Shown here: piece by piece, positions 20,656 through 33,025 of the stretch | How positions within the stretch are numbered: the stretch's first letter is position 1 | How the letters are laid out: every line of letters begins with the position of its first letter | Source: Bacteroidota bacterium | GTDB taxonomy: Bacteria > Bacteroidota > Bacteroidia > NS11-12g > UBA9320 | NCBI GenBank assembly: GCA_947468275.1 | Contig: CANIKO010000002.1 | Location: 169,363-233,362, forward strand | Length of the DNA stretch: 64,000 bases | Reading direction: 5' to 3' | Program-made: the position numbers and the translations under genes | Notes under the pieces: generated by a model | Database searches by the model: none | What the model was told of the DNA's origin: nothing | The model's input: the letters and a program-made list of their open reading frames with translations, nothing else

Positions 20656-20699
20656 AAATTCCTAATTCCAGATTCCTAATTCCTAATTTGCCAATTTGC
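20656..20699. repeat. AATTCCTAATTCC-type repetitive phrase
   Basis: AAAATTCCTAATTCCAGATTCCTAATTCC... : tandem TTCCTAA units upstream of the rhomboid gene. Sister copies at 30103-30130, 31830-31867, 37265-37306 and 60269-60297. Confidence 0.5.
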
Positions 20700-29144: not shown

Positions 29145-30104
29145 ATGAAAATAAGTAACGAAACCAGAGTAGGAACAATAGCGGCTATATCCATCACCAT
29201 CCTTATTTTGGGTTATAATTTTATGAAAGGTGAAAACCTTTTCACTTCCTATAACAGATATTACGCCGCCTACGATGATGTAGACGGTTTGTTCAAATCC
29301 AACCCTGTAATGATAAATGGATACAAAGTTGGCCAAGTTAGTGATGTAAAGATGGATCCTAAATCCTTAAAACTTTTAGTAGAAGTAAAGGTTCCAAATA
29401 ATATTAAGGTATCAAAAGATGCTGTTATAAAAATTGTTAACACAGATTTAATAGGTTCAAAAGGAATTCAAATATTAATGGGTAAATCGCATGAAATTGC
29501 TAAAACAGGAGATACTTTAAATTCGGATAAAGACCAAGGAATGGCCAAAACAGCAAGTAAACTTATAGCCCCATTATCTGAAAAAATAAACACATTGCTG
29601 AGCGAAATAAACAATCAAATAAGTGGCGACCAAATAAAATTAACGCTTCAAAGCTTAAATAAAACCCTGAGCACGGCTGATGCTGCCATTAAAGAAATGG
29701 AAACCATGATAACCAGTAAAAATGGAAAGATTGACGGAATATTAGGCGAGGTAAATTCAGTAACTTCCGATTTAAAATCTTCAACACCAAAAATAAACAG
29801 CATACTTGCCAATATTGAAGAAACCTCAGCCGAGCTAAAAAAACTGGAACTGGAAGCAACCATTAAACAACTGAAAACTGTTTTGGCTGATTTATCTGCA
29901 ACCATTAGTAATATCAATAAAGGCCAAGGCTCATTGGGCAAAATAGCCACCGATGATGAACTTTACAAAAAACTAAACACTACACTTGAAACCTTTAACA
30001 ACCTAGCGGCAGACATCGAAAAATACCCAAGCCGCTATACCGGAATTACTAAGTCTCAACGTAAACAAGCGGACAAGGAAAAGAAGAAAGCTGGGGAGAA
30101 ATAA
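29145..30104 (+). CDS. MlaD/MCE-domain lipid transport protein
   Basis: Periplasmic substrate-binding part of an MCE-type phospholipid transporter, anchored by one N-terminal helix (about residues 9-27). The MCE domain follows: YYAAYDDVDGLFKSNPVMINGYKVGQVSDVKMD (about 42-75) and KDAVIKIVNTDLIGSKGIQI. The remaining part (about 150-290) is a long helical stretch, as in MlaD relatives that form needle or ring assemblies. The C-terminus is very Lys-rich. The ATPase and permease (MlaF, MlaE) are not in the window. It follows the amidase directly. Confidence 0.9.
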   Translation: MKISNETRVGTIAAISITILILGYNFMKGENLFTSYNRYYAAYDDVDGLFKSNPVMINGYKVGQVSDVKMDPKSLKLLVEVKVPNNIKVSKDAVIKIVNTDLIGSKGIQILMGKSHEIAKTGDTLNSDKDQGMAKTASKLIAPLSEKINTLLSEINNQISGDQIKLTLQSLNKTLSTADAAIKEMETMITSKNGKIDGILGEVNSVTSDLKSSTPKINSILANIEETSAELKKLELEATIKQLKTVLADLSATISNINKGQGSLGKIATDDELYKKLNTTLETFNNLAADIEKYPSRYTGITKSQRKQADKEKKKAGEK

Positions 30105-30130
30105 TTAGGAATCTTGAATTAGGAATTTGG
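30103..30130. repeat. AATTAGGAATC-type repetitive phrase
   Basis: ATTAGGAATCTTGAATTAGGAATTTGG: the reverse-complement orientation of the AATTCCTAATTC phrase, starting at the MCE gene stop codon. Confidence 0.5.
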
Positions 30131-30186
30131 ATTTTTTTAAACACACTTTATTGCATCGTAGTTAAAAAAAAACATAAACCCTCCAA

Positions 30187-31092
30187 ATGAAAAAAATTAT
30201 CTATTTATTTATCTACCTATCTATAAATTTCCTCTCGGCTGATAGGGCATTTGGGCAATACGATTCAATCAAAGGAAATTTTCTAGTTTTATATTCCGGC
30301 GATATTATTATAACTAATAAATTACAATACTTAACCCCTATTTTCTATACAGATAATACTCATTACAACCAAGATGATGTTGAGTATTATCATGATCCGA
30401 CTGGATTATATAAAAATACTCTTAACTTAAATAAGCCGGGAAGTTCATCCTTTGTCAATGTGAGAAGAGAAGTCGGCGGCCCTAATTCAGGAAACATAGT
30501 TTTATATTCTGGTCAAGTTATTAAGTGTAATTCGATACAACATCAATCTCATTTTTTAATTACTGAATCGACCAAATATCATGAAGATGATGTAGAATTC
30601 TATAGAAAAGACAACGATTTATTTGCGAATACAAGAAAGTTTTCCATTTTAAAAAAGACTTCAGCATTTATAAAAGCTGAAACAACTGGTAAAATTAATT
30701 TGTTCAGAGAAACTACTGTCACCTATTCTAGGGATAGTAAGGGTAATCAAAGAACTAATATTCAAACCTCCTTATACTATAATAAGGGATATGGTGATTT
30801 AAAGTTCACTAAACTTAAATATTTAAAAAAAGATTTAGCAGATAATGCCGCAAGTTTACAGTTATTAGAAAAAGTAAAAAAAAGAAAAATAATTTCAGGT
30901 TGTCTGTGGACAGTTACTGTATTAATCATACCACTAGCCGTTTATCAATATAATACAGATGATGAGAGTGGTGGCACAATTCTAGCTGAAGTTGCAGGTA
31001 TGGTAGTGTTAGCGTTAACTGCGAAATTAGTAAACAGGCATGAAGATGATAATATAGAAAAGGCAATAAACATTTATAATGCAGGTTATTAA
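30187..31092 (+). CDS. exported protein with two copies of an unnamed module
   Basis: A 301-residue exported protein (signal peptide about 1-23, FGQ cut site) of unknown function. It has two copies of a ~50-residue unit: residues about 31-82 (LVLYSGDIIITNKLQYLTP.., DDVEYYHDPTGLYKNT) and about 102-152 (IVLYSGQVIKCNSIQHQ.., DDVEFYRKDNDLFANTR). The second half contains a NLFRETTVTY strand, YNKGYGDLK, then LKYLKKDLADNAASLQLLEKV and two hydrophobic helices near the C-terminus (about 238-258 and 265-282). The next gene is a shorter relative. No catalytic residues stand out. Confidence 0.7.
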   Translation: MKKIIYLFIYLSINFLSADRAFGQYDSIKGNFLVLYSGDIIITNKLQYLTPIFYTDNTHYNQDDVEYYHDPTGLYKNTLNLNKPGSSSFVNVRREVGGPNSGNIVLYSGQVIKCNSIQHQSHFLITESTKYHEDDVEFYRKDNDLFANTRKFSILKKTSAFIKAETTGKINLFRETTVTYSRDSKGNQRTNIQTSLYYNKGYGDLKFTKLKYLKKDLADNAASLQLLEKVKKRKIISGCLWTVTVLIIPLAVYQYNTDDESGGTILAEVAGMVVLALTAKLVNRHEDDNIEKAINIYNAGY

Positions 31093-31131
31093 ATTTTATT
31101 AGGTAAAATAAAATCTTCAACTTTATTTAAT

Positions 31132-31794
31132 ATGAAAAAAAACACTCTACTATTCATTAGTTTGCTTTGCGTTACAAAACTATTTAGCCAATCTGAAAAA
31201 CCAAATTACTCTTGTTTGTCGTTATATTCTGGAAGAGTTATTTATTCAAATTATGTTCAATATAATAAACCCTACTTCAATACAGATAAAGGTAGATTTT
31301 TTGAAGATTCTGTGAGTTTTTATAAGAACAGTTCAGGTTCCTTTGGGAATACAAGACATTTGAGAAAACGTAATCCTACATATTTTATGAAAGCTGTAAC
31401 TTTTAAAAATCTTAACTTATACAGCCAAACGGTAACCATAATTGCTGATAATACAACTAGTACAAAAGATGCCCTTGTATATAATAAAGGAACGGATATT
31501 CTAAAAAAGGCTAACTATAAAAATCTTAAATTTGATATGGCTGATAATGCCGAAAGTATGAGAATACTTAAACAGGTTAGAAATATTAGAAATGCTGAGT
31601 TCGGAATTTACGGATTAAGTTTGGCTTGTTTGGTAATTGGGATTGTAAATATTGCAAAAGATGGCCCGGATTACCTCAAATTTGGAGCGATTCCTTTAAG
31701 TTTAGGATTATATAAAATTACTGTTCTTGGCAATTCAAAACAAAAGAAAATAATTAAAGCTTTTCAAGCGTATGATTATGCTTCGCCAAATTGA
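31132..31794 (+). CDS. exported protein related to its upstream neighbour, one module copy
   Basis: A 220-residue exported protein (signal peptide ending LFSQ, about residue 20). Residues about 26-78 are a third copy of the unit in the preceding gene (CLSLYSGRVIYSNYVQYNKP.., EDSVSFYKNSSGSFGNTR). The shared second half follows: NLYSQTVTI, YNKG, NYKNLKFDMADNAESMRILKQV, then two hydrophobic segments (about 158-176 and 188-202). The match along the whole length, not only the module, makes these tandem paralogues that arose by duplication. Function unknown; 39 bp separate the genes. Confidence 0.7.
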   Translation: MKKNTLLFISLLCVTKLFSQSEKPNYSCLSLYSGRVIYSNYVQYNKPYFNTDKGRFFEDSVSFYKNSSGSFGNTRHLRKRNPTYFMKAVTFKNLNLYSQTVTIIADNTTSTKDALVYNKGTDILKKANYKNLKFDMADNAESMRILKQVRNIRNAEFGIYGLSLACLVIGIVNIAKDGPDYLKFGAIPLSLGLYKITVLGNSKQKKIIKAFQAYDYASPN

Positions 31795-31829: not shown

Positions 31830-31867
31830 TTTAATTCCTAATTCCTAATTCTCAATTCCTAATTAAT
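31830..31867. repeat. AATTCCTAATTC-type repetitive phrase
   Basis: TTTTAATTCCTAATTCC TAATTCTCAATTCCTAATT: four TTCCTAA-like units filling the convergent gap between the paralogue pair and hmgA, ending next to the hmgA stop codon. Confidence 0.55.
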
Positions 31868-33025
31868 CTACTCCACCCAACTCTTCCAATAGCCCTTATC
31901 CTCCATATCCAGAGCGGCTTGTGTAAGCTGTAAGGGATAAAATGGGTCAATCATCACCGCTAATTCTTTGGTTTCTTTAGCACCAATACTTTTTTCAACT
32001 GTTCCCGGATGCGGGCCATGCGGAATGCCTTTGGGATGCAATGAAATCATTCCTCGTTCCACATGCTTGCGACTCATAAAATCACCATCTACATAATATA
32101 AAACTTCATCGCTGTCCACATTGCTGTGGTTGTAAGGAGCAGGAACCGACAATGGATGGTAATCATAAAGTCGTGGCACAAATGAGCAAATCACAAAATT
32201 ATGGCCTTCAAAAGTTTGATGAATGGGTGGTGGCATGTGCAATCTTCCGGTTATGGGTTCATAATTGTGAATAGAAAAACCGTAAGGATAAACAAACCCA
32301 TCCCAACCAATAGCATCAAACGGATGTGTGGCATAGGTGTAAGGATAAATCATGTTTTGCTTTTTTATCATTACCTTAAAATCGCCTTGTTCATCATGGG
32401 TTTGCAAATTTTGAGGCAATTTTATATCCCGTTCGCAAAACGGTGAATGTTCCAATAATTGTCCAAATTCATTGCGATAACGCTTTGGAGTAACTATTGG
32501 CGAAAATGATTCAGTTATAAATAATCGGTTATTGGGGGTATCAAAATGTATTTTATAAATGGTTCCGCGTGGAATAACTAGATAATCGCCATGTTCAAAG
32601 ATAATTTCACCATAAACCGTTAGTAATTTTCCACTGCCTTCATGTATAAAAATCACTTCATCCGCATCGGCATTTTTTACAAAATAATCAGTGGTTCCAT
32701 TAGCTGGTGCTGCAGACGATACTGTTAAATCCTGATTTCCCATCAATACCACACGGCTTTTCAAGTAGTCATCTTCAGGCTTAGTCTTAAAGGTAATAAA
32801 ACTGCGGTTTTGCATGTTTTTCTTAAGCACATATTCAGGTTCTACACTCCATGCTTCGCCAATATCCTTTACCAATGTAGGAGGATGGCAATGGTAAACT
32901 AAGGAATATACACTCGAAAAACCGAGAGTACTTACAAGTTCTTCAGCATATAGGTTTCCATCAGCTTTGCGAAACTGTGTGTGGCGTTTTGGTGGAATAT
33001 TTCCAAGTTGGTGGTAAAAAGGCAT
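31868..33025 (-). CDS. hmgA: homogentisate 1,2-dioxygenase
   Basis: Fe(II) enzyme of phenylalanine/tyrosine breakdown that opens the homogentisate ring to maleylacetoacetate. The N-terminal YHQLGNIPPKRHTQFRK segment, the cupin part DADEVIFIHEGSGKLLTVYGEI, PRGTIYKIHF and the iron-site region PAPYNHSNVDSDEVLYYVDGDF (His and Glu ligands) followed by GIPHGPHPG are intact; 385 residues is typical of the Bacteroidota form. No other genes of the pathway lie beside it (no maleylacetoacetate isomerase, fumarylacetoacetase or hydroxyphenylpyruvate dioxygenase). TAAATTTG at 33070-33077 is a plausible promoter. Confidence 0.93.
   Translation of the reverse strand: MPFYHQLGNIPPKRHTQFRKADGNLYAEELVSTLGFSSVYSLVYHCHPPTLVKDIGEAWSVEPEYVLKKNMQNRSFITFKTKPEDDYLKSRVVLMGNQDLTVSSAAPANGTTDYFVKNADADEVIFIHEGSGKLLTVYGEIIFEHGDYLVIPRGTIYKIHFDTPNNRLFITESFSPIVTPKRYRNEFGQLLEHSPFCERDIKLPQNLQTHDEQGDFKVMIKKQNMIYPYTYATHPFDAIGWDGFVYPYGFSIHNYEPITGRLHMPPPIHQTFEGHNFVICSFVPRLYDYHPLSVPAPYNHSNVDSDEVLYYVDGDFMSRKHVERGMISLHPKGIPHGPHPGTVEKSIGAKETKELAVMIDPFYPLQLTQAALDMEDKGYWKSWVE

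Follow-up and report, generated by a model that had tools for sequence, protein, structure and literature searches.

The closest described systems each resemble one part of the locus reported here. The Sm motif carries an L.NG...G.V pattern, and SlyB is ordered as a helical hairpin plus a beta domain. SlyB forms ring-shaped transmembrane complexes in the outer membrane, as stated in excerpts of PMC13067283. The exported proteins described below resemble the Sm/LSm (Hfq) small beta-barrels in the L.NG...G.V pattern and in a weak Foldseek match of a modelled relative (L028), but they differ in being exported and in having no PDB sequence-profile match, and the Foldseek match is not significant. 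Their likeness to SlyB is an analogy of working, a helical hairpin and a beta domain placed in the envelope; unlike the lipoprotein SlyB, however, the two proteins of this locus have no lipobox cysteine at the mature N-terminus, the hairpin of the family is C-terminal, and the glycine-zipper model matched none of 17 family members at E up to 1. A Leptospira model, NF047433 (LA_0442/LA_0875 N-terminal domain), gave a weak match to the signal peptide and LKNG segment of one family member (L014; E 3.4e-4, 20.3 bits), but this covers 33 residues only and falls under the 43-bit cut-off.

The locus lies within a 64,000-nucleotide stretch of DNA, referred to here as the window, from a 3.3-Mb Bacteroidota genome in 32 contigs, and its two genes sit side by side on the forward strand. 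P0001 (30187..31092) encodes a two-module protein of 301 aa and P0002 (31132..31794) a one-module paralogue of 220 aa, both taken from open reading frames and their translations. A reading of the window made from sequence alone had proposed tandem exported paralogues, and both proteins indeed begin with a signal peptide: residues 1-23 in P0001 (30187..30255) and residues 1-19 in P0002 (31132..31188). Within the signal-peptide codons of P0001 lies a degenerate tract of 4-nt periodicity (30198..30225), in which three of the seven units are exactly TATC. Local alignment places module copy 1 at residues 31-95 of P0001 (30277..30471), copy 2 at residues 99-165 (30481..30681), and copy 3 at residues 23-90 of P0002 (31198..31401). 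Toward its C-terminus, P0001 has two hydrophobic helices assigned from model and hydropathy, at residues 235-253 (30889..30945) and 264-282 (30976..31032), and then a KAI..YN motif (31060..31080) conserved in the family alignment. Hydropathy gives P0002 a first helix at residues 157-175 (31600..31656) and a weaker second segment at about residues 182-200 (31675..31731); values above 1.4 are reached by two segments in P0001 and by the first alone in P0002. The proteins end shortly after KAINIYN and KAFQAYD, respectively. A third paralogue is encoded on another contig of the same genome.

The module is strand-rich and spans ~50-65 residues. Local alignment scores for its three copies were 108 (copies 1 and 2), 109 (1 and 3), and 107 (2 and 3), against best scores of 46, 52, and 44, respectively, in 1,000 shuffles per pair, none of which reached the real value, and P0001 was matched twice in independent profile searches. 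The repeat pattern first read from the sequence, with two units in P0001 and one in P0002, thus survives careful alignment. So do the other elements said to be shared, namely a G-I-N-L-F/Y strand, YNKG, an (L/M)ADNA.S...L helix, and two hydrophobic segments, all of which align between the two proteins, the second segment of P0002 being the weaker. Searches of Pfam, NCBIfam, PADLOC, and PHROGs with P0001 and P0002 returned nothing or weak, inconsistent matches (none in PADLOC; PHROG E 0.046 and worse), and no Pfam or NCBIfam model rose above its cut-off over the family members and partial relatives described below, in agreement with the earlier statement that the unit could not be placed. The type IX sorting-domain and adhesin models of Pfam and NCBIfam were likewise unmatched by either protein. 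The best PDB sequence-profile matches, to a poly-ADP-ribose polymerase (0.028, profile A2) and a GDP-mannose dehydratase (0.085, profile A9), were judged to be chance, and a SLATT two-transmembrane effector, prompted by two weak NCBIfam matches (best 0.056), was rejected.

Profile searching places the module inside a family of exported proteins of ~230 residues. Full-length members run in a common order from the signal peptide through an L-[KY]-[NS]-G-type beta module, an 'F.KR...G.I.LY' strand, a loop of variable length, 'YFSKD' or 'YYNKG', 'NLK..L.DN..S...L', and two hydrophobic segments to 'KAI..YN', and the family alignment extends from signal peptide to YN. With P0002 as query, relatives were found in 3 of 58 related genomes (its own included), all of the same genus, and three of the seven genomes of that genus carry family genes. 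Across the phylum, a seven-row profile matched in 13 of 395 sampled genomes, a 17-row profile in 19 of 395 (class) and 5 of 108 (order), and a 21-row profile in 26 of the 395-genome phylum sample, 14 of them over most of the model and the others in part; rows from earlier searches entered the later profiles, so that those genomes match by construction. Among the named members are four Balneolaceae/Balneola records and one from Ignavibacteriae, from a single contig scan that yielded 5 loci among 95 candidate stretches. Most of the family model (alignment A8) is covered both by P0002 and by the half of P0001 that holds its second module, each itself a row of that alignment; the independent test is the comparison of the close (A2) and distant (A3) halves of the family, which hhalign aligned over 218 columns with a probability of 99.6 (E 2e-24), compared with 0.1 for two unrelated neighbor-gene profiles. 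Judged from these alignments, the module forms the N-terminal domain of full-length family proteins and is not a free-standing repeat. One module per protein is the usual state, and no second module in the same frame was found in any other family protein recovered by the profile searches, so that P0001, with two, is by the same alignments an exception. An unassigned repeat is now tied to an exported, phylum-wide family that has no name in the curated libraries used.

Export is predicted for the whole family. In the Bacteroidetes, a Q-rule, by which glutamine is expected at the mature N-terminus after the signal peptide, has been described, although according to PMC5837995 it does not cover the entire FCB group; the members considered here include Balneolaceae and Ignavibacteriae. 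Of 22 members, a script picked out 21 with a small residue and then Q after the signal peptide, and the twenty-second (AQAQ) was recognized by eye. This pattern fits the Q-rule and would put the mature N-termini at Q24 in P0001 and Q20 in P0002, both cleavage sites being predictions.

The reading made from sequence alone had expected strand-rich repeats with a C-terminal membrane hairpin, and structure prediction agrees with this for a relative and only in part for the window proteins. AlphaFold2 modelled P0001 from seven rows with a mean pLDDT of 55, with block means of 24-47 over residues 21-130 and better values over residues 161-230, so that its modules are poorly modelled. When the Balneolaceae member L028 replaced P0001 as query over the same loci, the mean pLDDT rose to 74; L028, a relative, is about 23% identical to P0002, and its model is not one of the window proteins. 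It combines a many-stranded domain (strands from residue 25 to 133, block means 68-89) with a long helical hairpin (helices 143-149, 154-187, and 197-229, less certain in the middle at 56-59). No PDB entry matched this model in Foldseek at E <=0.001. The best of the short Hfq matches, to 8bvj_L (probability 0.89, E 0.61, TM 0.49 of the target, 45 columns), is not significant; such matches are at most a hint of an Sm/SH3-like small barrel. VIA-align superposed essentially the helical hairpin alone (model residues 142-236) with a best Z of 7.9, a range that its own note terms a common arrangement, and the chemoreceptor, ExbB/TolQ, and CorA helices that it lists are left uninterpreted. Matches in BFVD, mostly to levivirus coat proteins at E 0.02 and more and an rmsd of about 15, were rejected.

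The charges around the hairpin bear on where it could sit. By the positive-inside rule, the cytoplasmic side of inner-membrane segments is the more positive. In 19 of 21 members the two flanks of the hairpin, taken together, are more positive than the loop, with two ties and no member showing the reverse, in a count that used 15-residue flanks on each side of ends set by hydropathy, the flanks being longer than the loops. With a cleaved signal peptide and a periplasmic module, a normal inner-membrane hairpin would have its loop inside, contrary to the rule. The charge pattern thus suggests that the hairpin may lie in the outer membrane, or may enter a membrane solely from the periplasmic side.

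An outer-membrane position recalls SlyB, and by analogy the hairpin could oligomerize there while the beta module shields the membrane or partner proteins under stress. Export, the hairpin charges that are unsuited to normal inner-membrane threading, the glycine-rich hairpins of the Balneolaceae members, and the outer-membrane rings formed by SlyB (excerpts of PMC13067283) are all consistent with such a guard, but the window hairpins are low in glycine, no stress gene is adjacent, and the cysteine and glycine zipper are missing as noted above, and we consider this role very unlikely. An envelope-stress sensor, in which the module would respond to a ligand or to folding in the periplasm and the hairpin relay the signal, would use the same strand-rich exported module and hydrophobic helices; it appears highly improbable, as the proteins have no cytoplasmic domain, no kinase, sigma, or anti-sigma gene lies adjacent, and a membrane-spanning hairpin would return the C-terminus to the side of the module. 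Nor does any regulator or adhesin-assembly gene adjoin P0001 and P0002. Sensor, adhesin, outer-membrane guard, and exclusion roles all stand as hypotheses.

The genes occupy a site that varies among relatives. To their left is an MlaD/MCE-domain gene on the forward strand (29145..30104; PF02470, 3.4e-14) and to their right, convergent on the reverse strand, a homogentisate dioxygenase-like gene (31868..33025; PF20510, 2.9e-10), both of which serve as markers of the site and lie outside the system. In the sister genome G005 the site is empty, with 17 bp between the MCE and dioxygenase genes versus 1763 bp in the window. In G004 it holds a ParE-like toxin gene (L062:7508-8000; Pfam 28.3 bits, cut-off 23) and a tandem family pair, and in G003 a YhcG/DUF1016 nuclease (L064:2324-3106, apparently in two frames) and one family gene, just after which the contig ends; G001 and G002 have the dioxygenase gene with different neighbors on the MCE side. 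The P0001/P0002 pair is accessory, and its site is an apparent accessory hot spot. The variable repeat number that had been predicted for this assembly thus holds in part: relatives carry 0, 1, or 2 genes at the locus, but P0001 was the only protein seen with two modules.

The toxin and nuclease genes at this site, together with its being empty in G005 and with the fast divergence described below, would suit proteins that exclude, or confer immunity against, phages or rival bacteria. We find this very improbable, given that PADLOC returned no match and PHROG only weak ones, that no such toxin or nuclease neighbor was seen beside the third paralogue among the neighbors listed, and that P0001 as query found no relative in IMG/VR, a result for which viral origin was also rejected. 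By eye, no neighbor gene recurs with the family among the neighbors listed.

The two-gene insert is bounded by an imperfect inverted repeat of the AATTAGGAATT type, whose left arm (30102..30134, 33 nt) is 85% complementary to the right arm with which it pairs (31833..31865). Repeats of this type occur as six exact copies in the window versus 0.2 expected (30102-30134, 31833-31865, and 20657-20688), and the two-unit pattern, with up to 2 mismatches, at 33 places in the genome (18 forward, 15 reverse) versus 0 for the control. A transposon-like insert with inverted-repeat ends was rejected, given these 33 places and a short palindrome of the repeat that is retained at the empty site. The repeats instead resemble intergenic sequence dispersed through the genome and may be terminators or recombination sites.

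Between the window and G004, the flanking genes are near-identical and the cargo is not. The MCE and dioxygenase proteins are 92% and 97% identical, whereas P0001 shares 46% identity with the first G004 gene (79 of 172 positions) and P0002 shares 40% with the second (77 of 194 positions). The second locus behaves similarly, with 58% identity for the paralogue and 86% and 93% for its neighbors. Such low identity would be expected from rapid change, from allele replacement, or from relaxed constraint, and the fast divergence could also reflect independent acquisition at a hot spot. At the DNA level, P0001 and the first G004 gene agree at 36 of 46 and 63 of 76 aligned positions over the 5' flank and signal-peptide sequence and then at 43 of 72, in a comparison that left out the last slices (P0001/G004, with 1 position aligned, and P0002/G003, with 5). 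The G004 counterpart of P0001 (L009:898-1416) has a signal peptide, one module, and KAIDIYN, and the hydrophobic hairpin is absent from it, which argues that the anchor is not indispensable. In a tree of modules, copy 1 grouped with this gene with a support of only 73/74; an origin of P0001 by gene fusion is plausible.

The same G004 gene carries a perfect (TATC)6 tract inside its signal-peptide codons. It is the sole perfect tetranucleotide tract of at least 4 copies in 680,330 bases of fetched loci, a set from which 23 duplicate loci were excluded and some overlap was kept, so that the tract was counted twice through the overlap of L062 and L082. The exact 16-nt TATC pattern was found nowhere else in the seven genus genomes (about 19 Mb), in a search for TATC alone whose backward control is the repeat itself and hence uninformative. 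The second G004 gene has a frame break in a T run just past its signal peptide. Together, the two G004 repeats suggest slippage-based switching, with assembly error and chance as alternatives.

P0001 and P0002 are possibly phase-variable. If so, slippage in 5' simple repeats would switch surface or envelope proteins on and off, and immune, phage, or competitor pressure would drive their divergence. The isolated TATC tract, the T-run break beside it, and the fast divergence of the counterparts point this way. However, the window tract is degenerate, which makes slippage there unlikely; the genome-wide search covered TATC alone, the G004 frame break may be an assembly error, and no on/off variants were seen. 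On balance we regard phase variation as unlikely. A fuller version would make the site a contingency locus of an undescribed envelope family, in which a signal-peptide tetranucleotide and a partner homopolymer switch export by slippage and fusion of tandem copies adds modules; we consider this quite unlikely. Among the papers listed on tetranucleotide-repeat phase variation in Bacteroidetes, none gives an account of this family in its title or abstract.

The G004 genes could also be read as decay, with P0001 and P0002 as little-used, lineage-specific genes under relaxed constraint and heading for loss. Carriage by only three of the genus genomes, one frame-broken G004 copy, and another that is hairpin-less are in keeping with this, but the motifs from the signal peptide through YN are conserved even between distant members of the phylum and both window frames are intact, leaving decay distinctly unlikely.

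We favor a reading, which to us stands about as good a chance of being right as of being wrong, in which P0001 and P0002 are accessory proteins, exported by Sec and anchored in a membrane, that bind a partner in the periplasm through fast-evolving modules. The signal peptide would take each protein out through Sec, leaving a mature chain that begins at Q; the module would face the periplasm and bind a variable partner, and the hairpin would enter a membrane from the periplasmic side and anchor the protein there. Fusion or duplication of tandem copies would have given P0001 its extra module. The likeliest role would be that of a non-enzymatic binding or guarding envelope protein whose partner changes quickly. 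As the evidence is that of sequence and no gene neighbor is conserved, we infer the binding and the anchoring. Module homology, full-length colinearity, Q after the signal peptide, the L028 model, the empty site, and the divergence speak for this reading; the hairpin charge pattern, the poor model of the P0001 modules, and the hairpin-less G004 counterpart speak against it. What is new is a family without a curated model and a possible switch, the kind of system itself not being unheard-of. With near-identical flanks, fast-changing cargo at one site, and a possibly switchable repeat in one relative, envelope variation becomes directly testable here.

The two parts of the family, beta module and hairpin, also occur in separate proteins. 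One uncurated set of exported proteins from the phylum (A10: L042, L044, L045, L048, L103, L107, and L108) has the same N-terminal module, the 'F.KR...G.I.LY' strand, and a late YN (hhalign probability 98.1, E 7e-14), but is without the hydrophobic hairpin, in place of which L045 has a long, strand-rich C-terminal part. A second uncurated set, likewise exported (A13: L046, L047, L049, L053, L057, L104, L106, L109, and L113), has only the C-terminal hairpin half, with the 'L..N..A...L' helix, two hydrophobic segments, and YN (hhalign 97.1, E 7e-11, 90 columns), but its N-terminal parts are different and several members continue into a stretch ending in F. These comparisons support a family that splits into two reusable halves, N-terminal module and C-terminal hairpin, which appear to travel apart; they do so without independent proof, as both sets were collected using the family profile. 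The hairpin-less L048 as query found no match in the window genome, which by itself is uninformative.

Several of these proteins have further features of their own. After YN, L049, L104, L106, L109, and L113 continue with a stretch rich in glycine and strands, which in most of them ends in F; we take this to be reminiscent of outer-membrane beta signals. In G410, from Ignavibacteriae, a hairpin-half protein is encoded ~3 kb downstream of a full-length member at the same locus (L065:8580-12422), and two further partial matches lie on another contig. In the exported proteins L058 and L111, a lone L.NG...G.I module precedes a strand-rich tail, which may be an outer-membrane barrel.
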